Source: a virus. Taken from it: 45,794 nucleotides of DNA. Below are positions 2,792 to 45,794 of the stretch, piece by piece. A model generated the notes under the pieces. That model saw nothing but the letters and a program-made list of their open reading frames with translations. It was not told the DNA's origin and made no database searches. The stretch's first letter is position 1; the number at the start of each line of letters is the position of its first letter. The translations under genes and the position numbers were made by a program. Where the stretch lies: IMG/VR virus record IMGVR_UViG_3300009551_000065, positions 1 to 45,794 of that record; one strand, 5' to 3'.

Positions 2792-4842
2792 ACGCCGACG
2801 GCTTCGCTGTGGTGATGGCTGCCGCGATGCGCGGCGCCAGGCCGGAGCCGGAGCTCCGCGTCGACGAGTGGTCCGAGGAATTCATGATCCTGCCGAAGTC
2901 GTCGGCGCGGCCAGGCGCGTACCGCATCTTCCGGACGCCGCCGGCGCGACGCATCCTGCAATGCCTCAGCCCGAGGCACCCGGCGAAACGCGTCGTTATC
3001 CGCGGCGCCTCGCAGATGCTGAAAACGCAGATCGGGCTGAACTGGATGTGCGCCTGCATCCATCGGGCGCCGGCGAATATCCTCGCGATCGAGCCTACCG
3101 ATCAGCTGGCGAAGCGGCTCAGCGCGCGATTGACGCAGACGATCCGCGATGTCCCGGCGCTGCGCGCCGTCATCGCGCCGCAGCGCAGCCGCGACAGCCG
3201 GAACACCGTCGGCGCGAAGGACTATGAGGGCGGGACGATCTACATCGTCACGGGCGGCAGCGCGTCGAATCTGGCGGAGATCCCGGCGCGGTACATCTAC
3301 ATCGACGAGGTCGATCGCCTGGAGGCGTCCGTCGATGGCGAGGGCGATCCCGTCGAAATCATCGAGGCCCGCGCGACGACGTTCGCCAACACCTGCAAGT
3401 TCCTGGAGGTGTCCTCGCCGACGATCGCCGGGGCGTCGAAGATCGATGCGCTGTACGCGATGGGCACGCAGGAGTATTTCGCAGTCCCCTGCCCTCATTG
3501 CGGGCATCGCCATGAGCTGGTCATCGAGAATTTCCGGTACCACCGCGACGATGACAGCGGCTTCATGACGCGCGCCTGGTTCGACTGCCCCCACTGCGGC
3601 GAGGAGATCGACGAGCGCCACAAAAAGCAGATGGTCGCCGACGCCGCGCTGCAGCCCAATCACGGCTGGGTTGCCCGCAGCGCCGGCGATGGCGAGACGG
3701 TCAGCTTCCACGTCAGCGCATTCCTCGCGCAGGCCGGCAGCATCACGTGGCTCGCGCTCGCCCGGCAGTACGCGCGGGCGAAGGAGCGGCTGCAGACCGG
3801 CGACGACGAGGCGATGAAGGTTTTCTATAACACGCGACTGGCGATCAGCTGGGAGGGATCGCTCGACAACACGACGGCGCAGGAGCTGCACAAGCGGGCC
3901 GAGCCCTACCCGCCGCGCGTCGTCCCCGATCGCGCGCTCGTGGTCACGCTGACCGTCGACACGCAGCTGACGCGCCTGGAGGTCCAGGCCGAGGCCTGGG
4001 GGCCTGGCCTGGAGCACTGGGTGATCGATCATCAGGTATTCATGGGCAGCCCGGCCGAGCTGCCCTCGACGCCCGGCAGCGTCTGGCAGCGCCTCGATGC
4101 ATACCGCAGGACGCCCTTCGTGCATGCCGCCGGCGCGCTGATCCAGGCATCGGTCTACGGCATCGACTCAGGCGGCGCGAATACGCAGGATGTCTACAAC
4201 TACGGCGCGGCGCGCGCCCGCGCGGGCTGCCTCGTCCTGAAGGGCGCCAGCAAGCCGAACCGGCCGATCATCCCCGGGGTCCCGTCGAAGGTGGACGTCG
4301 ACCATCGGGGCGAGAAGATCGCCGGCGGCGTGATGCTCTGGATGATCGGCACCGACGTGGCGAAGGACCATCTGCACAACCGCTGGAAGCTCGTCGACGG
4401 GCCTGGCGCGATGCATTTCCATCAGGCGCTGCCGATGGAGTGGTTCGAGCAGCTCGTCGCTGAGCGGCCGATCCTGAAGCGCATGTCGGGCGGATTCGCC
4501 CGACGCATTTGGGTGAAAGCCCCCGGCGATCGCAATGAGGCGCTGGACCTGAGCGTCTATAACCTCGCGCTCGCCCATCATCTGGGGCTGCACAAATGGT
4601 CCGAGCTGGACTGGCAGCGCCTGCGCGCGCGCCTGGTTAAGCCGACCGCCGATCTGTTCGCGACCGCGGCACTCGAGGATGCCGCCGCGGCCGTTCCCGA
4701 GGCCGCGACAGCCTGGGACGCGCCGCCGCCGGCGGCGTCCGATCCGGCGCCGCCGCCTCCCCCCGCCGCAGCGCCGGCCCTGCCGAGCGCTGTCCCTGCC
4801 GTCTACGGGCGGCGCATTCGATCCCGAGGGATTTCACGATGA
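2788..4842 (+). CDS. terL: Terminase large subunit, lambda GpA family
   Basis: The 684-aa packaging motor has an ATPase domain with a Walker A-like motif GASQMLKT (73-80), the ASNLAEIPAR segment (159-168), Walker B YIYIDEVD (169-176, catalytic Glu174) and a coupling motif near SSPT (209-212). Two CPHC pairs (Cys235/238 and Cys267/270) form the zinc-ribbon insertion typical of the GpA family. The nuclease domain shows Asp391 (VDTQ) and Asp460 (GIDSG). The C-terminal 60 residues are proline/alanine rich. The family cuts concatemers at cos, which fits the lambda-like head genes further right. It overlaps both neighbours by 4 nt. Confidence 0.95.
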   Translation: MNADGFAVVMAAAMRGARPEPELRVDEWSEEFMILPKSSARPGAYRIFRTPPARRILQCLSPRHPAKRVVIRGASQMLKTQIGLNWMCACIHRAPANILAIEPTDQLAKRLSARLTQTIRDVPALRAVIAPQRSRDSRNTVGAKDYEGGTIYIVTGGSASNLAEIPARYIYIDEVDRLEASVDGEGDPVEIIEARATTFANTCKFLEVSSPTIAGASKIDALYAMGTQEYFAVPCPHCGHRHELVIENFRYHRDDDSGFMTRAWFDCPHCGEEIDERHKKQMVADAALQPNHGWVARSAGDGETVSFHVSAFLAQAGSITWLALARQYARAKERLQTGDDEAMKVFYNTRLAISWEGSLDNTTAQELHKRAEPYPPRVVPDRALVVTLTVDTQLTRLEVQAEAWGPGLEHWVIDHQVFMGSPAELPSTPGSVWQRLDAYRRTPFVHAAGALIQASVYGIDSGGANTQDVYNYGAARARAGCLVLKGASKPNRPIIPGVPSKVDVDHRGEKIAGGVMLWMIGTDVAKDHLHNRWKLVDGPGAMHFHQALPMEWFEQLVAERPILKRMSGGFARRIWVKAPGDRNEALDLSVYNLALAHHLGLHKWSELDWQRLRARLVKPTADLFATAALEDAAAAVPEAATAWDAPPPAASDPAPPPPPAAAPALPSAVPAVYGRRIRSRGISR

Positions 4843-5369
4843 CTGATGCACTACGCAGCGCCCTGCGGCCGATCACGGCCGAGGACCTGATGCGCTCGGC
4901 TGCCCGCCCTGCAGCGCCAGCCAATGACGACGCCGAGCCGGCGCCAGGCGCGCCCTACGTCGAGCCCGACGGCGACGAGGTCGATCAATCGCTGCATGCC
5001 CTTTTCGAGGAGTGGGCGACGTGGACGCGCAATCGCCGGTACCGGGCGCTCATGCTGCCGGCGTCGCCGCCCGTCGCGCCGAGCGCCGAGGTCCGCGCGC
5101 TCGTCGCCGCGATCGCGACGCCGCCGGCGCAGCTGATGGCGCTGCATCTGGCGATCGTCTCGCAGCCGCCCGAAGCGCTCGACAGGCGAGTATTCGAGAT
5201 GCATTACATAACCCGGGTTATGAATGTCAAGGCCGCTGCGGCGGCAATGAAAATCAGCCGGAACCATTGGTATCGGCTTATCAGCGCATTCCGACGACGG
5301 GTATATACAATATCTCAGGATATATTAGAGGAAACCGAGGCATTAAAGCGCGGCAGCGACGTATCATAG
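4839..5369 (+). CDS. HTH protein resembling sigma-70 region 4 / antitermination Q-like
   Basis: This 176-aa protein overlaps terL by 4 nt. The first half is low complexity, followed by a helical region (LHALFEEWATWTRNRRY). The C-terminal part (FEMHYITRVMNVKAAAAAMK, then ISRNHWYRLISAFRRRV) looks like a sigma-70 region 4 type helix-turn-helix, as in Q-like antiterminators and small phage sigma-like regulators. The last 50 codons are clearly more AT-rich than the rest and run into the AT-rich island that follows. A role in late gene control is inferred only. Confidence 0.7.
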   Translation: MTDALRSALRPITAEDLMRSAARPAAPANDDAEPAPGAPYVEPDGDEVDQSLHALFEEWATWTRNRRYRALMLPASPPVAPSAEVRALVAAIATPPAQLMALHLAIVSQPPEALDRRVFEMHYITRVMNVKAAAAAMKISRNHWYRLISAFRRRVYTISQDILEETEALKRGSDVS

Positions 5370-5376
5370 AAACAAG

Positions 5377-5463
5377 AATACAGCTATCAATAATTGGTTT
5401 TAATATCATCAATATAGTATATATTCGCGAGAATATATTTTTTAATATATTGATAGCTGTATT
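5377..5463. repeat. AT-rich 16-bp inverted repeat enclosing a GCGA-capped hairpin
   Basis: AATACAGCTATCAATA at 5377-5392 is perfectly complementary to 5448-5463. Inside lies a second hairpin, ATATATTC (5419-5426) and GAATATAT (5431-5438), closed by the GNRA-type tetraloop GCGA and followed by six T. The whole 5370-5520 stretch is strongly AT-rich in a GC-rich genome. It could end the terminase transcript (hairpin plus T-run), act as a DNA-unwinding or protein-binding site, or form a structured RNA. The two nested stems are seen directly; the role is not. Confidence 0.7.
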
Positions 5464-5521: not shown

Positions 5522-5764
5522 ATGAGAAAACTTGCCGATGAATGGTCGGATTACGAAAACAGGATTCTTTCGGCGCATGCCGGGCAAACGCAGCGCATAG
5601 AAACGCGCCGCGCTTTCTACGCTGGCGCTCATTCGATCCTGATGGGGCTGCTGGACGCGGCCAGCGAGTCGGGCGAGAGCGACGATATCGGGGCAACGAT
5701 GCTCGAAAACCTGCATCGCGAATGCCGAATATTCGTGCTCGACGTGGCTGAGGGGCGGGCATGA
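5522..5764 (+). CDS. Small conserved phage protein, unknown function
   Basis: The 80-aa protein (key segment QRIETRRAFYAGAHSILMGL, acidic middle, C-terminal LDVAEGRA) resembles a small family common in phages of proteobacteria; I recall this pattern but cannot search. It has no signal peptide, membrane helix or catalytic motif. It overlaps the next gene by 4 nt (ATGA), which supports both as real and co-translated. It is the first gene after the AT-rich hairpin island. Confidence 0.75.
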   Translation: MRKLADEWSDYENRILSAHAGQTQRIETRRAFYAGAHSILMGLLDAASESGESDDIGATMLENLHRECRIFVLDVAEGRA

Positions 5765-6115: not shown

Positions 6116-6155
6116 CGGCGCGAATTCGATCATTCGGACATTCGCGAATTCACAC
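6116..6155 (+). promoter_or_regulatory. Octad array 1
   Basis: Consecutive 8-bp words ATTCGATC, ATTCGGAC, ATTCGCGA, ATTCACAC (6124-6155), preceded by a more degenerate CGGCGCGA, give a 40-bp unit of five. It lies 17 nt before the start at 6173, with the SD-like GAGGGG between. It belongs to a family of arrays dispersed over the window. A protein-binding operator is inferred from the periodicity. Confidence 0.6.
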
Positions 6156-6172: not shown

Positions 6173-6493
6173 ATGGACTGGAGCAACGTACTGTCGACCA
6201 TTCAGATGATCGGCGCCGGGACGGCCGCTATCACCGCCGCCGGCGCCGGCGGCGAGAAGGACAAGGAGCACGCGGCGGCGGCGCTGTCGGCGATTCAGAT
6301 CATTCTGCAGCTGCATGCGGCGCTGCAGCCCGCGCCGGCCAGGCTCGCCGGCGCCCTGCCCGACGGGCCGGCGTCGATCGAGTCGCCGCCAATACCGCCC
6401 GGCGCGCAGCGGATGGACCCGCCGAGGCCGGCCGGGGCGGTCCCCGATAAGGGGTTTACGCCGATGGACCCGCCGGCGCCGGCAAAAAAGTAG
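6173..6493 (+). CDS. Hypothetical protein with alanine/proline-rich tail
   Basis: The 106-aa protein begins MDWSNVLSTIQMIGAGTAAI; the ATG at 6173 is chosen because GAGGGG lies 8 nt upstream and octad array 1 precedes it. The N-terminal half is small and hydrophobic (AAITAAGAGG), then charged. The second half is proline-rich (PPIPPGAQRMDPPRPAG, PMDPPAPAKK). I do not recognise a family. A structural or anchoring role is possible but unsupported. Confidence 0.6.
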   Translation: MDWSNVLSTIQMIGAGTAAITAAGAGGEKDKEHAAAALSAIQIILQLHAALQPAPARLAGALPDGPASIESPPIPPGAQRMDPPRPAGAVPDKGFTPMDPPAPAKK

Positions 6494-6495
6494 CC

Positions 6496-6535
6496 ATTCG
6501 CGCATTCCGCCTTTCCTACTTTCGTACTTTCCAGA
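6496..6535 (+). promoter_or_regulatory. Octad array 2
   Basis: Five tandem 8-bp words: ATTCGCGC, ATTCCGCC, TTTCCTAC, TTTCGTAC, TTTCCAGA. The array ends exactly where the Shine-Dalgarno AAGGAAAC begins, 12 nt before the start codon at 6548. Array 9 has the same geometry. Confidence 0.7.
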
Positions 6536-6547
6536 AAGGAAACCGCC

Positions 6548-7144
6548 ATGTTCGAGCTACCCGAGCCGACGCGGGCAAAGATCAAGCACGTCAACGTGCG
6601 GACCGAGACGCATGGCGAGGACCGAAAACCCGCCGTGACGATCAAGCTGCGCATCGAGGCATCGAACATGCTGCTGCAGCATTTCGAGGATGACCTGCCG
6701 CGGCGGTTCTACCGCGCGCCGGCCCTGCCGCCCGCCCAGGCGGTGCTCGACGGCACGATGCACACGCAGCTGACCGAGCTGCTGTCGCAGGTCGTGGCTG
6801 CGGTCCTGATCAAGGGCGTCTATCAGGGCTGGACGCTGTTCATCGACTACGGCGCCAGCGCATCGAGCCATATCCTGATGGGCGGCTGCAAGGTCGACAA
6901 GATCAAGGCCGAGCTGCTGGCCGGCGGGACGATCGCGCTGACGCTGAGCGTCGGATCGAGCGACATCGATGACCGCAGCCTCGGGCGCATCTGCATGCTG
7001 CAGGACATCGAGGTCAGCATCACGCTGAAGGCGCCGAGGGCCGGCCTCGCTCAATCGGACAGCGACGACGAGCAGCCGCCCGCCAAAAGGCCCCGCGGCC
7101 GACCGCGCAAGATCGTCGCGGCGCTCGCCGGCGCGGATGCCTGA
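6548..7144 (+). CDS. Conserved phage protein with C-terminal AT-hook
   Basis: The 198-aa protein has a mixed alpha/beta body (about 1-165) resembling a conserved phage family of unknown function. Recognisable pieces are HVNVRTETHGEDRKP, KVDKIKAELLAGGTIALTL and GRICMLQDIEVSI. The C-terminus adds an acidic stretch and then KRPRGRPRK (about 181-189), a classic AT-hook core (GRP flanked by Arg) for minor-groove binding of AT-rich DNA. This is notable because the genome is GC-rich and the main AT-rich island lies only 1 kb upstream. It is expressed behind octad array 2 with a strong SD. DNA binding is inferred. Confidence 0.75.
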   Translation: MFELPEPTRAKIKHVNVRTETHGEDRKPAVTIKLRIEASNMLLQHFEDDLPRRFYRAPALPPAQAVLDGTMHTQLTELLSQVVAAVLIKGVYQGWTLFIDYGASASSHILMGGCKVDKIKAELLAGGTIALTLSVGSSDIDDRSLGRICMLQDIEVSITLKAPRAGLAQSDSDDEQPPAKRPRGRPRKIVAALAGADA

Positions 7145-8700: not shown

Positions 8701-9315
8701 TTGGCCACAAATGACAAGAAAGTCGAGCCCATCGGTACGCGCTACGGGCGTCCGATCTACCGAACGAACCCGTCGATCCCGAATGCCGGAGAGGTGCGTA
8801 CGCGCAGCCGGGTGGTCCCGCTGGTGAACGGCGATCGGGCGATGGTTGTCAACGCTACAGGCGAAATCCTCGGCAGCGCGCAGGCCACATACGCCTGGGC
8901 CGAGGAGGTCGATCAGACACGATTCGTGAAGCTGTTCCTCGATGGCATCAGGCAAACCGTCGGGCTGTCGAAGGCGGGGTTGGCTGTCTTCGAGCTGGTC
9001 TACATGCAGATGCGTTCGAATCCCGGCATCGATCGAATCGAGCTGAATCTATTCGACGCGAAGGATCGGGGTATCGTTGAGCGCACATTCCGGCGCGGCC
9101 TGGGCGAGCTGCTGGAACGAGAATTCCTCTATGCGAGTCCGACGGATGGCGTTTTTTTCGTCAATATTCGATACCTGTTCAACGGTAACAGGCTGAACTT
9201 CATCCGACAGTATTATCTGAAAGGCTCGCGCGACCCCGATACTGCGCAGGGCGCGCTAGATTTTGACGATCAACCGCCGATGCTCGGCAACAGTGACGAG
9301 CCAGGCGGGCAGTAA
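8701..9315 (+). CDS. Plasmid replication initiator, RepL-like
   Basis: The 204-aa protein has the layout of RepL-type initiators: a winged-helix core (GLSKAGLAVFELVYMQMRSN, about 81-100), a second helical unit (VERTFRRGLGELLEREFLYA) and the signature FFVNIRYLFNGNRLNFIRQY (about 153-172), comparable to the INPxxxFNGDR segment of that family. The start is a TTG at 8701 preceded by GAGGGG; no good ATG exists before the conserved region. It lies directly downstream of the structured non-coding region. With parA it makes plasmid replication of the prophage likely. Confidence 0.75.
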   Translation: MATNDKKVEPIGTRYGRPIYRTNPSIPNAGEVRTRSRVVPLVNGDRAMVVNATGEILGSAQATYAWAEEVDQTRFVKLFLDGIRQTVGLSKAGLAVFELVYMQMRSNPGIDRIELNLFDAKDRGIVERTFRRGLGELLEREFLYASPTDGVFFVNIRYLFNGNRLNFIRQYYLKGSRDPDTAQGALDFDDQPPMLGNSDEPGGQ

Positions 9316-9323
9316 GCGGCGTC

Positions 9324-9749
9324 CTACCCCTCCTGCCCTGCCATCTTGCGCGATCGGGCGCCCTCCTCTGCCAGCGCCTCTAAGTCCTGCCACGAGTAGC
9401 GACCCCAGCGCTCGGCGATTGCGTCAGCCCAGCCCGCATCAAGGCGCTGGAGAGCCTCGGGTATGGTGTAGCCGAGGCCTCGCAGCAGGCCGACGTTGCT
9501 GGTGGCCAGCGCGACGTACAGGCGCTCGCCCGTTGACATCGGATGAAAGCCGCCGAGGTTGCCGCGCAGAACTTCGTGCGCGACGGCGTCAAGGCGCTCC
9601 AGATGCTGGGCCGACGGCGCGCCGTGATACGCCAGCGCGAAATGGCCCAGGCGCGACGCGATTTCGTCAAAAGCCTCCGGGCCTACGTCGCCGCGCTCGC
9701 CGGCCAGCGCGAGGGCTTGAATACCGGCCAATTCCGCGCGGGCGCTCAT
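9324..9749 (-). CDS. Hypothetical protein, third gene of the partition operon
   Basis: This 141-aa, helical, slightly acidic protein overlaps the ribbon-helix-helix gene by 4 nt (ATGA) and is transcribed with parA. The sequence includes FDEIASRLGHFALAYHGAPS and GNLGGFHPMSTGERLYVALA. I do not recognise the family. Its position suggests an accessory to partition or copy control, but nothing in the sequence proves this. It converges on rep with only 8 nt between. Confidence 0.68.
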   Translation of the reverse strand: MSARAELAGIQALALAGERGDVGPEAFDEIASRLGHFALAYHGAPSAQHLERLDAVAHEVLRGNLGGFHPMSTGERLYVALATSNVGLLRGLGYTIPEALQRLDAGWADAIAERWGRYSWQDLEALAEEGARSRKMAGQEG

Positions 9750-9991
9750 GGATTCGCCGCCTTATAGGCATCGAATGCCGCGAATAGCAGCTCGTTCAGT
9801 TTCTTGCCCTCGGTAAACGCGCGCGTCCGAAACTCGCGATTGAAATCTGCGCTGACCTTAAATCCGAGGTTTTCGAGATTCTTGTCCGACGGCGGGGCGG
9901 CCGGCGCGACAGCGGCGACGGCGGGCGCCGCCTGGGCGCTCGGCCGTTTCGTGCGCACGTTGGCGCTGGTGAGCTGTGAGAATTTAGGCAC
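9746..9991 (-). CDS. Ribbon-helix-helix partner of ParA (ParG/omega-like)
   Basis: The 81-aa protein has an alanine/proline-rich flexible N-terminus (1-35) and a C-terminal ribbon-helix-helix domain: beta strand LGFKVSADF followed by two helices (REFRTRAFTEGKKLNELLFA). Size and plan match ParG-type centromere-binding proteins that pair with small ParA ATPases. The GTG start at 9991 follows AGAAAGGAG. It overlaps parA by 8 nt on one side and the next gene by 4 nt on the other. RHH dimers bind short tandem boxes, which makes it the best candidate binder of the octad arrays. Confidence 0.78.
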   Translation of the reverse strand: MPKFSQLTSANVRTKRPSAQAAPAVAAVAPAAPPSDKNLENLGFKVSADFNREFRTRAFTEGKKLNELLFAAFDAYKAANP

Positions 9992-10640
9992 GGGCCTTCT
10001 CCTTTCTGGTTACTTTACGGAATTCTGGAAAGCGCGAAATTACGAAATCGCGAAAGGCGACCATTTCGGCGGCGCCCTTCCCTGCCGGCTCGGCCTCGCT
10101 GATCGAGCGGCCGTCGATCATCGAGGCGGCATAGGCGACGCGATCGACGACGGCGACAGGCGCGACGTGGCCGTGCTCAGACAGCGCGCTGGCCGTCTGC
10201 AGGGCGATCCCGTTGGCCCCCTTCGCGGCGTTGAGCACGAAGACGTACGGGACGCCGGCGGCGGCGCACATGTCGATGGTGGCGCCGAGCGCCTCCAGAT
10301 CGTGCGGCGACGGCCGCGCCGGGATCACGACCAGGTCGGCCGCGGCGATCGCGCGTCGATTGATGTCGCTGACGGACGGGGGCGTATCGACGACGGCCCA
10401 GGCATAGCCATCGCTGGCCAGCGCTGCCAGGCGCGCCGGCAGCCCCTCGGGCGTGCTGTCGGCGAATGCCGGGTATTCCTGCTCGCGCCGATCCCACCAG
10501 CCCGCGAGCGTGGCCTGGGGATCGAGATCGAGCAGGACAACGGGGCCGCGTCCCGCCTGGTGCAGGCCGACGCCGAGGTGAGCAGCCAGCGTGCTCTTGC
10601 CGCTGCCCCCTTTCCGGCTGGCCAGGACGATTGTTTTCAT
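9984..10640 (-). CDS. parA: ParA-type partition ATPase
   Basis: The 218-aa protein begins MKTIVLASRKGGSGKST, the deviant Walker A motif of ParA/MinD ATPases (KGGSGKST, residues 10-17). LLDLDPQ (about 36-42) and VDTPPS (about 77-82) are the A' and B motifs. It lacks the N-terminal HTH of type Ia ParA, so it is the short type Ib that works with an RHH partner. The ATG at 10640 was chosen because it directly starts the ATPase fold; longer in-frame extension reads through octad array 4. It segregates the extrachromosomal prophage, by inference from family. Confidence 0.9.
   Translation of the reverse strand: MKTIVLASRKGGSGKSTLAAHLGVGLHQAGRGPVVLLDLDPQATLAGWWDRREQEYPAFADSTPEGLPARLAALASDGYAWAVVDTPPSVSDINRRAIAAADLVVIPARPSPHDLEALGATIDMCAAAGVPYVFVLNAAKGANGIALQTASALSEHGHVAPVAVVDRVAYAASMIDGRSISEAEPAGKGAAEMVAFRDFVISRFPEFRKVTRKEKARA
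10016..10055 (-). promoter_or_regulatory. Octad array 3, inside the 3' end of parA
   Basis: On the minus strand five words follow each other: TTTCGCGA, TTTCGTAA, TTTCGCGC, TTTCCAGA, ATTCCGTA. They encode part of the ParA C-terminus and end 24 nt before the GTG of the RHH gene, whose SD is AGAAAGGAG. The array thus sits in coding sequence but in the same position relative to the next gene as the intergenic arrays. Confidence 0.65.
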
Positions 10641-10676
10641 GCGATCGCTTTCAGTTATGGGCGCAATGATGTTAGA

Positions 10677-10716
10677 AATCGCGCTTTCGTACAAGCGCGA
10701 AAGCTCGATTTCGTAC
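10677..10716. promoter_or_regulatory. Octad array 4, upstream of parA
   Basis: On the plus strand the words are AATCGCGC, TTTCGTAC, AAGCGCGA, AAGCTCGA, TTTCGTAC. The array begins immediately after the stop of the preceding minus-strand gene and lies 36 nt before parA. GCTTTCG/CGAAAGC within it also forms a dyad. This is the expected place for an autoregulatory operator or parS. Confidence 0.65.
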
Positions 10717-10917
10717 CTACTCGACGATTTTGGTTTCGAACGAGGCCGCGAGCTGAGCGGCGTCGGCGGACCACTGTCCCTCGGTTTCACGGGCGGCGTT
10801 GCGCAGATGGCCAGCAGCGTCCGGCCAGCGGCCCTCGATGATGGCTTTCAGCGCGAGTCTGAGGCGGAGCTCCTGCCCTTCGGGGCATGACATGAGCAGT
10901 TCGTACGTAGTCGGCAT
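10717..10917 (-). CDS. Small hypothetical protein upstream of parA
   Basis: This 66-aa protein (ELRLRLALKAIIEGRWPDAA, then GHLRNAARETEGQW) is predicted helical. It is co-directional with parA and ends exactly at octad array 4. AAGGA lies about 12 nt upstream of the ATG. Its family is not recognised. It may share the partition transcript. Confidence 0.6.
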   Translation of the reverse strand: MPTTYELLMSCPEGQELRLRLALKAIIEGRWPDAAGHLRNAARETEGQWSADAAQLAASFETKIVE

Positions 10918-10984
10918 TTGGTAGACGCATCCTTGCGGGCTGTCGCGCTACGGGCTGCAGCGCATCGGCGCAAGCTTGGCGCGA

Positions 10985-11024
10985 ATTCTGCCTTTCGATC
11001 AAGAGCGATTTAGCGAATTCGTAC
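10985..11024. promoter_or_regulatory. Octad array 5 in a divergent intergenic region
   Basis: Words ATTCTGCC, TTTCGATC, AAGAGCGA, TTTAGCGA, ATTCGTAC occupy 40 bp between divergent genes starting at 10917 (minus) and 11087 (plus). Two words are degenerate in the first half. An ATG at 11036, 11 nt downstream, has no SD; the ATG at 11087 has one. Confidence 0.6.
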
Positions 11025-11086
11025 TTTTTCCCATCATGAAGCCTCTGGCAAGCTGGCGTCCTTTGGAAACGTGCGGAGTTACCGAC

Positions 11087-12316: not shown

Positions 12317-12468
12317 TCCCCGTCTCGCAAACGACCGGTTTCGAGACGGCAGCCGGCGATCGCGCCGCCGATGCGCCCTCCCCTCTGGCGCCGAAATCTC
12401 GAAAACCTGTCTCGATTCAAAATCTCGATTGCGCCGAGTCGAGACGGGTTTTGCGACAATCCGCGGCC
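12317..12468. promoter_or_regulatory. Probable res site and promoter of the resolvase
   Basis: This 152-bp gap precedes the resolvase. CCGTCTCG (12320-12327) and CGAGACGG (12342-12349) form a 30-bp dyad whose inner bases AAAC/GTTT also pair. Further words of the same kind follow: TCTCGAAAAC and TGTCTCGATT at about 12397-12417, AATCTCGATT at 12421-12430, and CGAGACGGGTTTTGCGAC at about 12440-12456. Several inverted GTCTCG elements next to a serine resolvase gene are what a res site with subsites looks like. Confidence 0.6.
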
Positions 12469-13044
12469 ATGAGCATGACGATCGGCTATGCCCGCGTGTC
12501 GACCGACGAGCAATCGCTCGCGCTGCAGATCGACGCGCTGACGGCAGCCGGCTGCGGCCGAGTCTTCAGCGATACCGCCTCGGGCCGAGCAGCGACGCGG
12601 GCGGGGCTCGCCGACGCCCTCTCGCATCTGCGCGCTGGAGACACCCTGGCGGTCTGGAAGCTCGACCGTCTCGGGCGAAGCGTGGCCGGCCTGATCGCCC
12701 TCGTTGGCGATCTGGAAAAGCGCGGCGTCGCCTTTCGCAGCCTGACGGATGGCATCGACACGTCGACGCCGGCCGGGCGGTTCTTCTTTCACGTCATGGC
12801 GTCGCTGGCTCAAATGGAGCGCGAGCTGATCGTGGAACGGACGCAAGCGGGGCTGACGGCCGCGCGTCAGCGCGGGCGGGTCGGCGGACGCAAGCGCAAG
12901 ATGACGGCGGCGCGCATGGAAGCCGGCGCGCAGCTGCTGGCGGCTGGCCAGCCGGCCGGCGACGTGGCTGCAGCGCTTGGCGTATCGCGGGCGACGCTAT
13001 ACCGTTGGCTGCCGGCTGCGGCAGCTGTTGATGCCGACGAGTAG
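12469..13044 (+). CDS. Serine recombinase (resolvase/invertase family)
   Basis: The 191-aa protein has the catalytic domain of small serine recombinases: YARVSTDEQ with Ser11, WKLDRLGRS with the two active-site arginines, and the long E helix (FFHVMASLAQMERELIVERT). A C-terminal HTH (GDVAAALGVSRATLYRWLPA) binds the site. Proximity to parA and rep suggests that it resolves plasmid dimers into monomers. No invertible segment with flanking inverted repeats was seen next to the tail fibre genes, so inversion is less likely. Confidence 0.92.
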   Translation: MSMTIGYARVSTDEQSLALQIDALTAAGCGRVFSDTASGRAATRAGLADALSHLRAGDTLAVWKLDRLGRSVAGLIALVGDLEKRGVAFRSLTDGIDTSTPAGRFFFHVMASLAQMERELIVERTQAGLTAARQRGRVGGRKRKMTAARMEAGAQLLAAGQPAGDVAAALGVSRATLYRWLPAAAAVDADE

Positions 13045-13082
13045 GGCGTAAAGCGCGAATGATCGAATTCGCGAAATCCAGA
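13043..13082 (+). promoter_or_regulatory. Octad array 6
   Basis: Words AAGCGCGA, ATGATCGA, ATTCGCGA, AATCCAGA (13051-13082), preceded by a weak AGGGCGTA, form the array. As in arrays 2 and 9 it ends where the SD (AAGGGAAC) begins, 13 nt before the GTG start at 13096. Confidence 0.6.
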
Positions 13083-13095
13083 AAGGGAACCGACC

Positions 13096-13455
13096 GTGCA
13101 ATACGAACTCGAGGACGGGATCGCCGGCGTCATGGCGCGAGTGCGCGCGGCGGCCAAGTTCGCGGCGATGGGGGGTGAGGTCGATGCCTGCGAAAGCGGA
13201 TTCGCGTTGGTGGAGGCAAGTATCCGCGCGCTGCTTTCACGGCGCGACCACCCGAGTACTCCGCCGCTGTCCGGAGGCCTTCAGCTGCTTCCGTGCGCAG
13301 TCATGATGAACGACGCCAGCCCACAAAATGGCTGGCTGTTCGTCCCGCACGTCGACGGCAAGTGGGTGAGCCTCTGCAAGCTCGACGGCTTCAGCGGCAA
13401 GATCATCGAATACTGGATGGGCGAGACGGCGTCGCGCGATGCCAATCCGGCCTGA
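13096..13455 (+). CDS. Hypothetical protein
   Basis: The 119-aa protein starts at a GTG with the strong SD AAAGGGA. An N-terminal helix (GIAGVMARVRAAAKFAAMGG) leads to a beta-rich part (NGWLFVPHVDGKWVSLCKLD). It overlaps the HNH gene by 17 nt. No family is recognised. Confidence 0.6.
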   Translation: MQYELEDGIAGVMARVRAAAKFAAMGGEVDACESGFALVEASIRALLSRRDHPSTPPLSGGLQLLPCAVMMNDASPQNGWLFVPHVDGKWVSLCKLDGFSGKIIEYWMGETASRDANPA

Positions 13456-14205: not shown

Positions 14206-14265
14206 TTGCGTCTTCCGTTAGGGTAGGGGGCTACGTCGTGCAGCCCATGACGGAAGCTTGGCGGA

Positions 14266-14305
14266 AATCGCTAATTCGTCCAAGCGCGAATTCGCGAATT
14301 CGTAC
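14266..14305. promoter_or_regulatory. Octad array 7
   Basis: Five words: AATCGCTA, ATTCGTCC, AAGCGCGA, ATTCGCGA, ATTCGTAC. It lies between divergent genes, 16 nt before the ATG at 14322, with the SD AAGGA directly after the next 8 bases. Confidence 0.7.
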
Positions 14306-14321
14306 CTACAAGGACGCTCAC

Positions 14322-14552
14322 ATGAACAACTGGAAATGGCCAGGGCCGGCGCTGCTGTTCGAGCGCTCGGACGACAACGCTAACGGTATGGCCCTCTACC
14401 TGGCCAATCTTCATCGCTGGCTGGGGAACTTCTTACTCGGCGACAAGGCGCTCACGAACGAAGACGCCGAGTTGCTCTGGTGGGCCATCGCGAACACGCA
14501 TATGGCGGCGGCCAGGTGTGGGGCCGCGACGGAGCGGCCCCTGTCCCATTAG
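14322..14552 (+). CDS. Small hypothetical protein
   Basis: The 76-aa protein (NNWKWPGPALLFERSDDNAN, then LTNEDAELLWWAIANTHMAA) starts at an ATG with AAGGA upstream and directly follows octad array 7. It is tryptophan-rich and helical. It converges on the next gene with a 4-nt overlap. Not recognised. Confidence 0.6.
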   Translation: MNNWKWPGPALLFERSDDNANGMALYLANLHRWLGNFLLGDKALTNEDAELLWWAIANTHMAAARCGAATERPLSH

Positions 14553-14944
14553 ATCGGTAGTTTGACGGGCAGCGGGCGAACGCACCAGACCGGCCATATG
14601 TAGCTGAAGGCCGTCGCGTTGGTCTGCTCGAAGACGAGCATCCCCTTTGTGGTGATGATGAAGCGATAGAAACCCGTGTATCCGCCGTATGCGTTCTTTC
14701 CGTTGACCTCGCCGCAGAGCGCGGTCGCGTGGGGATCATCGGCCGGATCGTTCTCGCTCAAGAATTCGCCGCGAAACCGCGCAGCTGGTCCGTCCCTCAT
14801 CGCGTCGATGACGTTCGCGTGCATATCTCTGGCTATGCCGCGGTGATAGGCGAGCCACTCGTCCGTGTCCTTATTCGCGTGAGCGCAGACGCTGATCAAG
14901 GCGAGGGCGAGGGCGGCTGCGCGCCGAGCGGTACGGTTGGGCAT
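14549..14944 (-). CDS. Secreted protein with signal peptide
   Basis: This 131-aa protein begins with a classical Sec signal: basic MPNRTARR, hydrophobic AAALALALISVCA, then a cleavage site of the AHA|N type near residue 23. The mature part has ARFRGEFLSENDP and ALCGEVNGKNAYGGYTGFYR, a pattern seen in small periplasmic proteins of proteobacteria and plasmids. Two Cys may form a disulfide. A secreted, non-structural protein in a temperate phage is a good candidate for a lysogeny-expressed cargo gene. Its action is unknown. Confidence 0.72.
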   Translation of the reverse strand: MPNRTARRAAALALALISVCAHANKDTDEWLAYHRGIARDMHANVIDAMRDGPAARFRGEFLSENDPADDPHATALCGEVNGKNAYGGYTGFYRFIITTKGMLVFEQTNATAFSYIWPVWCVRPLPVKLPI

Positions 14945-15002
14945 GGGGGTAGGGTGGCTACGGGGGCTACGATGCGCCGCCCCTCGTCGCCAGCTTCGGC
15001 CG

Positions 15003-15042
15003 ATTCGCGAATTCCTACATGCGCGAAATCGCGAATTCGTAC
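15003..15042. promoter_or_regulatory. Octad array 8
   Basis: Five words: ATTCGCGA, ATTCCTAC, ATGCGCGA, AATCGCGA, ATTCGTAC. It fills the gap between two minus-strand genes: it ends next to the stop of the HTH gene and lies 58 nt upstream of the secreted-protein gene. Confidence 0.7.
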
Positions 15043-21524: not shown

Positions 21525-21558
21525 CGGCCGCTTTGCATCGTACGTTACACAGGCGCGA

Positions 21559-21598
21559 AATCCGCCATTCGGAAATTCCGCCTTTCTGACATTCCCGA
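21559..21598 (+). promoter_or_regulatory. Octad array 9, inside the morphogenesis operon
   Basis: Five words: AATCCGCC, ATTCGGAA, ATTCCGCC, TTTCTGAC, ATTCCCGA. It ends at the SD AAGGACGA, 12 nt before the ATG at 21611, exactly as in array 2. It is the only array within the structural genes. The 13-mer ATCGTACGTTACA lies just upstream (21537-21549). Confidence 0.7.
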
Positions 21599-21610
21599 AA
21601 GGACGAAATC

Positions 21611-21796
21611 ATGAAGGTCACTGCAACCATGCCGGTACGGCTGGGCACGAAGGACGGTCCGGTCGACTACGCCGAGGGCGAGTCGTTCGAGGTCGACGAG
21701 AAGACGGCGAAGTCGCTGCTGGAGAGCGGCGCGATCAAGGAGGACGCGGCGCCGGCGGCGAAGAAGACGGGGGGCAAGACGGACGTCAACGGGTAG
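21611..21796 (+). CDS. Small acidic/basic protein after the capsid gene
   Basis: The 61-aa protein (TATMPVRLGTKDGPVDYAEG, then FEVDEKTAKSLLESGAIKED) resembles the small phage proteins with a single beta-strand/helix unit placed between capsid and head-completion genes (the FI position of lambda). It has a Lys/Ala-rich tail. Its role in DNA packaging or head completion is inferred from position only. Confidence 0.68.
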   Translation: MKVTATMPVRLGTKDGPVDYAEGESFEVDEKTAKSLLESGAIKEDAAPAAKKTGGKTDVNG

Positions 21797-44732: not shown

Positions 44733-45141
44733 TGACCAGACGGCCGCGCTGCGGCTCGATGAGCCTGAATGGCTGCGCATCCTGCGCGCCTTCAGTCGCC
44801 GCGCGGCCGTCGGGTCGAATGGTGAAAAGCTGGATTGGCAGAAATCCGACTTTCGCGAATTCGAGCATCCGCCGCCCGAGCTGCATCCGAACACGGCCGC
44901 GCTCGTCAAAGCATTCACCGCCGAGCTGGCCAGGAAGCTAGCCGAGGCCGAGCAGAAGTACGGTTATAGCGACGGCTGGGCGTCGCCCGACTGGATGGAC
45001 GAATGCAGGCGGCAGCTGCGCCTCCATGTCGACAAGGGGGACCCTCGGGACGTGGCTGCGTACTGCGCGTTCCTCTGGTACCACGGCGAGCGCACATCGG
45101 GGCCGCCCTCGCCCCCTGCGCCGCCCGAGGCCTCGGCCTGA
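44716..45141 (+). CDS. Conserved phage protein of unknown function
   Basis: The 141-aa protein starts at the ATG at 44716 behind AGGAAAG; ATGs at 44674 and 44695 are less well placed. The C-terminal half (AEQKYGYSDGWASPDWMDEC, RRQLRLHVDKGDPRDVAAYC, AFLWYHGE) matches a widespread phage/plasmid motif of unknown function. It is co-transcribed with the primase-helicase. Three octad words lie inside the gene (44843-44866). Confidence 0.75.
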   Translation: MGNEPDDQTAALRLDEPEWLRILRAFSRRAAVGSNGEKLDWQKSDFREFEHPPPELHPNTAALVKAFTAELARKLAEAEQKYGYSDGWASPDWMDECRRQLRLHVDKGDPRDVAAYCAFLWYHGERTSGPPSPPAPPEASA

Positions 45142-45161
45142 CATTGCATCGGAAAGACGGA

Positions 45162-45201
45162 ATGCTCGATTTCGATCATTCTTACTTTCGCGAAATCGCG
45201 A
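45162..45201. promoter_or_regulatory. Octad array 10
   Basis: Five words: ATGCTCGA, TTTCGATC, ATTCTTAC, TTTCGCGA, AATCGCGA. Unlike the others it is not followed by a gene but by the AGTTACG iteron cluster, 40 nt further right. Confidence 0.65.
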
Positions 45202-45240: not shown

Positions 45241-45506
45241 CAGTTACGTACTCGGCACGCATCGGTTACGACGAGACCACGAGCAACGGCGCGGGAAGTT
45301 ACGCAGTTACGCAGTTACGAGCCCCTCGCGCTGCGCGCATGCCCGCGTAGGCCCGCGCGTGCATGCGCGTATGTACACACACACGTGCGCGCGCGGGCGC
45401 GCGCAGGCGCAGGAGCTGCCGTAACTCCGTAACTGCGTAACTCTCGTTATTCGGCGCGGCCCCTGTCTCTTGGCCACCTCGTGCCATCGTCGTAACTGCG
45501 TAACTC
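45241..45506. repeat. Inverted clusters of the 8-bp iteron NAGTTACG
   Basis: Plus-oriented copies lie at 45241-45248, in degenerate form at 45263-45270, and as three tandem copies at 45296-45319. Inverse copies (CGTAACTN) follow as three in tandem at 45420-45443 and two at 45491-45506. Nine copies of the AGTTACG core are exact. The two orientations face each other across a 100-bp GC-rich spacer. Tandem 8-bp spacing is typical of protein-binding iterons. Confidence 0.75.
45354..45395. repeat. 42-bp alternating purine-pyrimidine tract (Z-DNA-prone)
   Basis: Every step from 45354 to 45395 alternates pyrimidine and purine (CG runs, then TGCATGCGCG, a TACACACACA run and GTGCGCGCG). Such tracts readily adopt left-handed Z-DNA under negative supercoiling. 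It lies centrally between the two inverted iteron clusters. Confidence 0.75.
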
Positions 45507-45794
45507 CTCTCTCTCTTATGAGAAAAATAATTCATGCGGGAAAAGGGCCGAGCGACGTGACAAGCAGCCAGGGGCTGTGGTATTTATCGCCCTGCGCAGG
45601 GCCTCGTCAGCAGGCCCGCGCCGGCCCGACTGATCCCGGGCCATACGCGCTAGGAATGAGGACGACAGACAGGGCCGACGACGGCCGGCAGCGCTGCCCG
45701 TTTCGGGCGTTGCCGACGCCGGCGAGACGGCCGGCAACCCCGGCAACGGGGGGGCTGTAGGTACTTACGCGCGCCCCGGCGACGGGGGTAATTA

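Follow-up and report, generated by a model that had tools for sequence, protein, structure and literature searches.

Octad arrays at the gene starts of a putative phage-plasmid follow its plasmid-type ribbon-helix-helix partition partner

The viral sequence analysed here (IMG/VR record IMGVR_UViG_3300009551_000065, all 45,794 nucleotides, hereafter the window) carries a parA gene, an adjoining gene for a ribbon-helix-helix (RHH) protein, and ten arrays of an 8-bp box, or octad. We consider it probable, from comparison with related sequences, that these form a type Ib-like partition module of a phage-plasmid and that the RHH protein binds all ten arrays. Binding of the octads by this protein, as proposed in an initial annotation of the window, is strongly supported by the comparisons described below, in which the arrays track the RHH gene across unrelated replicons. 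The accompanying proposal that the arrays form a dispersed centromere is only plausible, and a function as operators or silencers is at least as likely.

The window appears to be a complete or nearly complete phage genome of 45.8 kb. Its first and last 8 bp are identical (GGTAATTA, at 1-8 and 45787-45794), the contig L176 begins exactly at window position 1, and in L177, a relative of 95% identity, the two ends are continuous with a single GGTAATTA at the junction, which suggests that these are the cohesive ends of a complete genome. A GpA-type terminase, capsid proteins and a primase are encoded, and homologues of the phage backbone are found in other phages. The parA and RHH genes are situated close to a gene for a RepL-like protein, and a search of the window for a tyrosine integrase (PF00589) found none. 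Because of this replication protein and the lack of a tyrosine integrase, the genome looks by gene content like that of a phage-plasmid. A serine recombinase gene lies near parA, and L005 and L007, two plasmid relatives, likewise have a recombinase there. When the first 25 kb of the window were compared with phages by megablast, no match was obtained, and scans with the RepL-like protein and with the RHH alignment matched only pieces of near-identical phages. A gene for a ParB-like nuclease, a protein of another type than the RHH partner, lies outside the partition pair at 76-945 and is overlapped in another frame by a DNA-methyltransferase-like gene (635-1852). An AT-rich island at 5361-5463 (about 20% GC in a genome of 67% GC) contains a perfect 16-bp inverted repeat, AATACAGCTATCAATA, around 55 nt that is predicted to form a strong DNA hairpin (z -5.0). 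This island is possibly an origin, a telomere-like site or a recombination site.

The ParA/RHH pair recognised in the initial annotation is present, and the two genes overlap (Table 1). ParA has a KGGSGKS Walker A motif at its N-terminus, starting from residue 10, and, as in the short ATPases of type Ib systems, no N-terminal helix-turn-helix extension; ParA families match it from residue 1. It is 49-59% identical to plasmid ParAs that have the same RHH partner. The RHH protein is predicted to consist of a disordered N-terminal tail, a beta strand (LGFKVS, residues 42-47) and two helices (48-61 and 65-79). The window protein itself matches no RHH Pfam model, and 24 of 31 members of its family match PF23807 (RHH_10). 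AlphaFold2 modelled residues 41-81 with confidence, as two helices after a strand segment, and residues 1-40 with low confidence. Foldseek matched the ordered C-terminal half of this model to CopG, ParG, Arc and AmrZ in the PDB, a consistent set of matches although weak in E-value. When the RHH profile was searched against PDB sequences, no homologue was obtained, and no ParG at E-values up to 10; likeness to the ParG/TP228 family proper is thus found at the level of the fold and not of the sequence. As in type Ib systems, then, parA adjoins a gene for a putative RHH DNA-binding protein, identified by RHH_10 in its family and by its predicted fold. The low-confidence residues 1-40 include a basic motif that is conserved around K15 (LVAxKGxA in relatives), and by analogy with the ParG tail (PMC7308502) this motif would be the natural ParA contact of the RHH protein.

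The box of the arrays is NGAAWKCN in either orientation, with a core of GAAW/WTTC. Forward and reverse boxes stand in a single register, so that GAATTC is the palindromic form. Cores on the same strand are 8 bp apart in 28 instances, against a mean of 0.7 and a maximum of 4 in order-2 Markov simulations, and spacings of 16, 24 and 32 bp are also raised. The window holds eight arrays with at least three same-strand cores, and 200 such simulations produced none. When either orientation is allowed, nine arrays of at least four boxes are found, and with a degenerate array (array 5, scoring 16.3 nats under an octad model from the contigs L008 and L009 against a null 99th percentile of 5.3) the total is ten, each having 4-7 box positions. 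This agrees with the count and the 8-bp period given in the initial annotation, to which we add a weaker three-box cluster inside a gene at 44841-44862. Arrays 3 and 4 lie where they had been reported, directly before the RHH gene and between parA and the gene upstream of it (10717-10917, minus strand), respectively. The distance from array end to the following start codon is 0-57 bp for all ten arrays, and at several of them the last box forms a Shine-Dalgarno sequence.

Table 1. Positions of the maintenance genes and octad arrays in the window
Feature	Position	Strand	Remarks
Array 1, four octads	6122-6151	.	21 bp before ATG at 6173
Array 2, six octads	6494-6539	.	8 bp before ATG at 6548; last box overlaps Shine-Dalgarno
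RepL-like plasmid replication initiator (maintenance module)	8701-9315	+	tblastn to plasmid replication proteins, several annotated RepL, 28-49%
RHH centromere-binding (ParB-type) candidate, 81 aa	9746-9991	-	GTG start behind AGGAG
parA, 218-aa Walker-type partition ATPase	9984-10640	-	ParA by Pfam, PHROGs (phrog_164, 1e-34) and NCBIfam
Array 3, five octads	10020-10057	.	within 3' end of parA CDS; 29 bp before RHH start
Array 4, five octads, third degenerate	10675-10712	.	upstream of parA; operator/centromere candidate
Array 5, degenerate octads GCGAATTC TGCCTTTC GATCAAGA GCGATTTA GCGAATTC	10984-11030	.	
Serine recombinase (resolvase/invertase)	12451-13044	+	
Array 6, four octads	13057-13086	.	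9 bp before GTG at 13096
Array 7, octads 2 + degenerate + 2	14264-14301	.	20 bp before ATG at 14322
Array 8, octads 2 + degenerate + 2	15001-15038	.	upstream of minus-strand gene 14549-14944
Array 9, seven octads	21557-21610	.	after major capsid gene; abuts next gene's ATG at 21611
Array 10, six octads	45152-45197	.	near right end

Two further features of the repeats were observed. Arrays 4, 7 and 8 are built alike, with two boxes on each side of a TACAAGCG-like element, as though the centre held a promoter element or a spacer octad. A second, different 8-bp repeat (AGTTACGC / CGTAACTS) occurs close to the right end in three clusters in inverted orientation (45297-45319, 45420-45443 and 45491-45506), is conserved in L177, and is perhaps a replication origin or a set of sites for another protein.

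In order to see what the arrays accompany, we compared loci that share different parts of the window. There are 133 confirmed relatives of ParA in the bacterial and archaeal genome set, and many relatives on plasmids; at 32 of the 80 best ParA genome loci the next gene belongs to the same RHH family. Arrays are present at 19 of these 32 loci and at only one of the 48 without the RHH family (Fisher 5e-9), and the idea that octads are a property of ParA alone was therefore rejected. Twelve of the 13 RHH loci scored as array-negative belong to a clade with another box core. At the RHH-partnered loci, period-8 arrays precede parA and often recur where parA and the RHH gene meet, the places of arrays 4 and 3, so that the window and its relatives have tandem repeats at or upstream of the operon as a candidate centromere, as type Ib systems do. 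A hidden Markov model given no motif and allowed periods from 6 to 12 preferred period 8 in all three RHH clades, with log-likelihood ratios against the next best period of 403 vs 325, 297 vs 275 and 73 vs 70. The contigs L008 (75.7 kb) and L009 (26.9 kb) have in common with the window only ParA (58-59% identity) and the RHH protein, yet bear four and three arrays of the same octad, and the model built from these two contigs alone recognised all ten window arrays (9.7-20.9 nats). Conversely, phages with the same terminase, portal, capsid and primase but no ParA/RHH have no octad arrays. The whole records G009, G013 and G017 share the phage core and lack both, and the absence of octads from these and from G010, G011, G016 and G021 led us to reject the arrays as a property of the phage backbone. 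A locus with a ParA of 45% identity and a different RHH partner (L003), which served as a contrast, has no octads. Taken together, the controls for backbone, module and partner indicate that the arrays follow the RHH protein. Relatives with the same RHH protein and no arrays, which would speak against binding, were looked for and not found among close relatives; in the more distant RHH clades 8-bp arrays are present but their core is shifted. Viral contigs were also scanned for three forward boxes in tandem, and 21 matches had no member of this ParA/RHH family on the DNA compared. One of them, L234, was set aside as unrelated: it has GAATGCGC-type octads within genes (3876-3913, 4509-4538 and 5540-5569), two of the three copies adjoin a CCCCTCGCCAGGGCGAGGC repeat, and they look like an inserted repeat family.

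The initial annotation suggested that RHH and octad sequences be compared for covariation, and the result is favourable in part. Known RHH proteins suggest, by analogy, that residues 43 and 45 of the beta strand face the DNA; the window, L008 and L009 have G,K here (LGFKV), and the plasmid clades have N,K or N,R (LNFKV and LNFRV). GAATTC boxes occur at 3/3 LGFKV loci, which are all that this clade comprises (17/81 boxes, those within a locus not being independent), vs 1/15 LNFKV loci, and the LNFRV clade favours ACGAAAGC/GTGCTTT. The summed fit to the ten window arrays was 157 nats for the L008/L009 model vs 110 for the LNFKV and 88 for the LNFRV model. For arrays 2, 9 and 10, however, the fit of the LNFKV model equalled or exceeded that of the model from the window's own clade, and we therefore regard the proposal that the octad consensus shifts with the predicted DNA-contacting beta strand as supported, not perfect. 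Substitutions in near relatives, although small in number, point to selection on the remote arrays as well: array 9 in L243 (94% relative) has one change, which is in a spacer, and array 10 in L177 has five changes, none of which destroys a GAAW/WTTC core and one of which turns GAAATC into GAATTC.

If the RHH protein does bind these sites, dimers of the 81-aa protein probably place their beta ribbon on consecutive 8-bp boxes and so coat each 4-7-box array. RHH ParBs bind short tandem boxes and repress overlapping promoters, and in pSM19035 ParA is fully activated only with four or more contiguous repeats (PMC9499535); since every array in the window has at least four box positions, coating would be expected at all ten, and by the same analogy it is plausible that the dispersed arrays act as one multi-site centromere. 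Arrays 3 and 4, beside the par genes, would be the ancestral operator and centromere shared with plasmids. The RHH protein bound there may repress the par operon, and its disordered tail may contact ParA, by which the prophage would be moved over the nucleoid. At the eight further gene starts its binding would label the entire prophage as cargo for segregation and cover the 5' regions of phage genes, so that the remote arrays could add centromere sites, gene control, or both. We put forward only tentatively, and as less likely than not, that a plasmid RHH segregation protein has been recruited by a temperate phage to regulate its whole genome; acting on all ten arrays, the protein would both segregate the prophage from many sites and repress phage genes. 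If so, partition loss and prophage induction would be coupled.

An alternative to which we give a nearly even chance is that the RHH protein binds all arrays but partition involves just the pair beside parA; the other eight would be operators or silencers that switch off or modulate phage genes in the prophage. The dispersed stoperators of cluster A mycobacteriophages are a parallel for such sites. The closeness of every array to a start codon, with Shine-Dalgarno sequences formed by some of the last boxes and one array placed between the capsid gene and the next gene, makes an operator or silencer function at least as likely as a centromere; array position is nevertheless weak evidence, because in a compact genome nearly every gap precedes some gene. 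A simple scan, uninformative in itself, recognised no sigma-70 promoters at the arrays. RHH ParBs do control promoters that overlap parS (PMC9499535), and the ParB of NAH7 acts at dispersed parS, of which there are six, near transfer genes (PMC12421886), but four or more box positions per array, as pSM19035 partition needs, are perhaps above what a minimal operator would require. Plasmid relatives that were examined have arrays at the par locus only, and partition thus does not need dispersed sites.

It seems to us quite unlikely that a different phage regulator occupies the remote arrays and that these resemble the par octads by coincidence or through common descent of operators. Possible DNA-binding proteins do exist among the small uncharacterised products of the window (one, encoded at 6548-7144, has a weak AT-hook match), and in some remote arrays G tends to be preferred at box position 6. 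Against this, the model from two contigs sharing only ParA and RHH recognises all eight remote arrays, register and period are identical in remote and par arrays, and phages of the same backbone without the RHH protein have none. Practically no weight is left for low-complexity or codon-driven repeats without function: array 3 does overlap the coding sequence for a basic ParA tail, but an 8-bp period is not a codon multiple, the spacing is about 40 times above Markov expectation, and cores are conserved where spacers change. The Markov excess and the conservation across replicons refute such an origin.

With binding by the RHH protein as the preferred reading, comparison alone defines the sequence to which a widespread RHH partition family, in which an RHH_10-type protein follows ParA, is likely to bind. 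For this family no solved structure was found by sequence search, and its members are annotated as hypothetical on the plasmids examined. Its octad appears to be undescribed in the literature searched, where, with incomplete coverage, ten RHH-type octad arrays at phage gene starts were not found either. The window offers a natural case of a plasmid centromere box at many gene starts of a phage, and it suggests that one RHH protein both segregates the dormant phage and touches many phage genes; on that reading, a single protein could be tested for roles in both segregation and the control of lysogeny. The connection of beta-strand residues with box sequence also opens RHH-DNA specificity to direct test.

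Several known systems resemble the window in part. N15, with which the initial annotation had drawn a parallel, is a phage-plasmid whose sop system has several separate sites, IR1-4 (PMC7205306), and the ten arrays of the window are candidate sites of comparable layout. Since N15 uses SopB, a different, spreading type of ParB, and inverted repeats, the parallel holds for layout only; N15 also has only four sites and a linear prophage, and the partner in the window is an RHH protein with octad arrays. RedRock, a mycobacteriophage with an extrachromosomal prophage, is likewise maintained as a plasmid, as we propose for the window, and its parABS system uses an 8-bp motif, with two parS loci of eight copies each (PMC7157519). 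It differs in having direct repeats only and no more than these two loci. The delta/omega system of pSM19035 shares an RHH protein and arrays of short boxes in either orientation, several of which overlap the promoters of parA, parB and a copy-control gene (PMC9499535), but its boxes are of 7 bp and of different sequence, its arrays number six, and it is not a phage. The type Ib ParF-ParG-parH system of TP228 has the same small ParA without a helix-turn-helix, adjacent RHH gene and tail-plus-RHH architecture, and ParG is among the PDB fold matches. Its centromere parH is an array of tetramer boxes with spacers, and the operon is autorepressed (PMC7308502). The window, in contrast, has a GAAW box core, a second array at the parA/RHH junction and ten arrays in all, and its RHH profile does not find ParG. 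The plasmid ParA + RHH_10-type modules (pXCV19, Methylococcus and small plasmids of E. coli) share with the window two adjacent genes, a ParA of 49-55% identity and 8-bp arrays at parA, and are set apart from it by arrays confined, in the plasmids examined, to the par locus.
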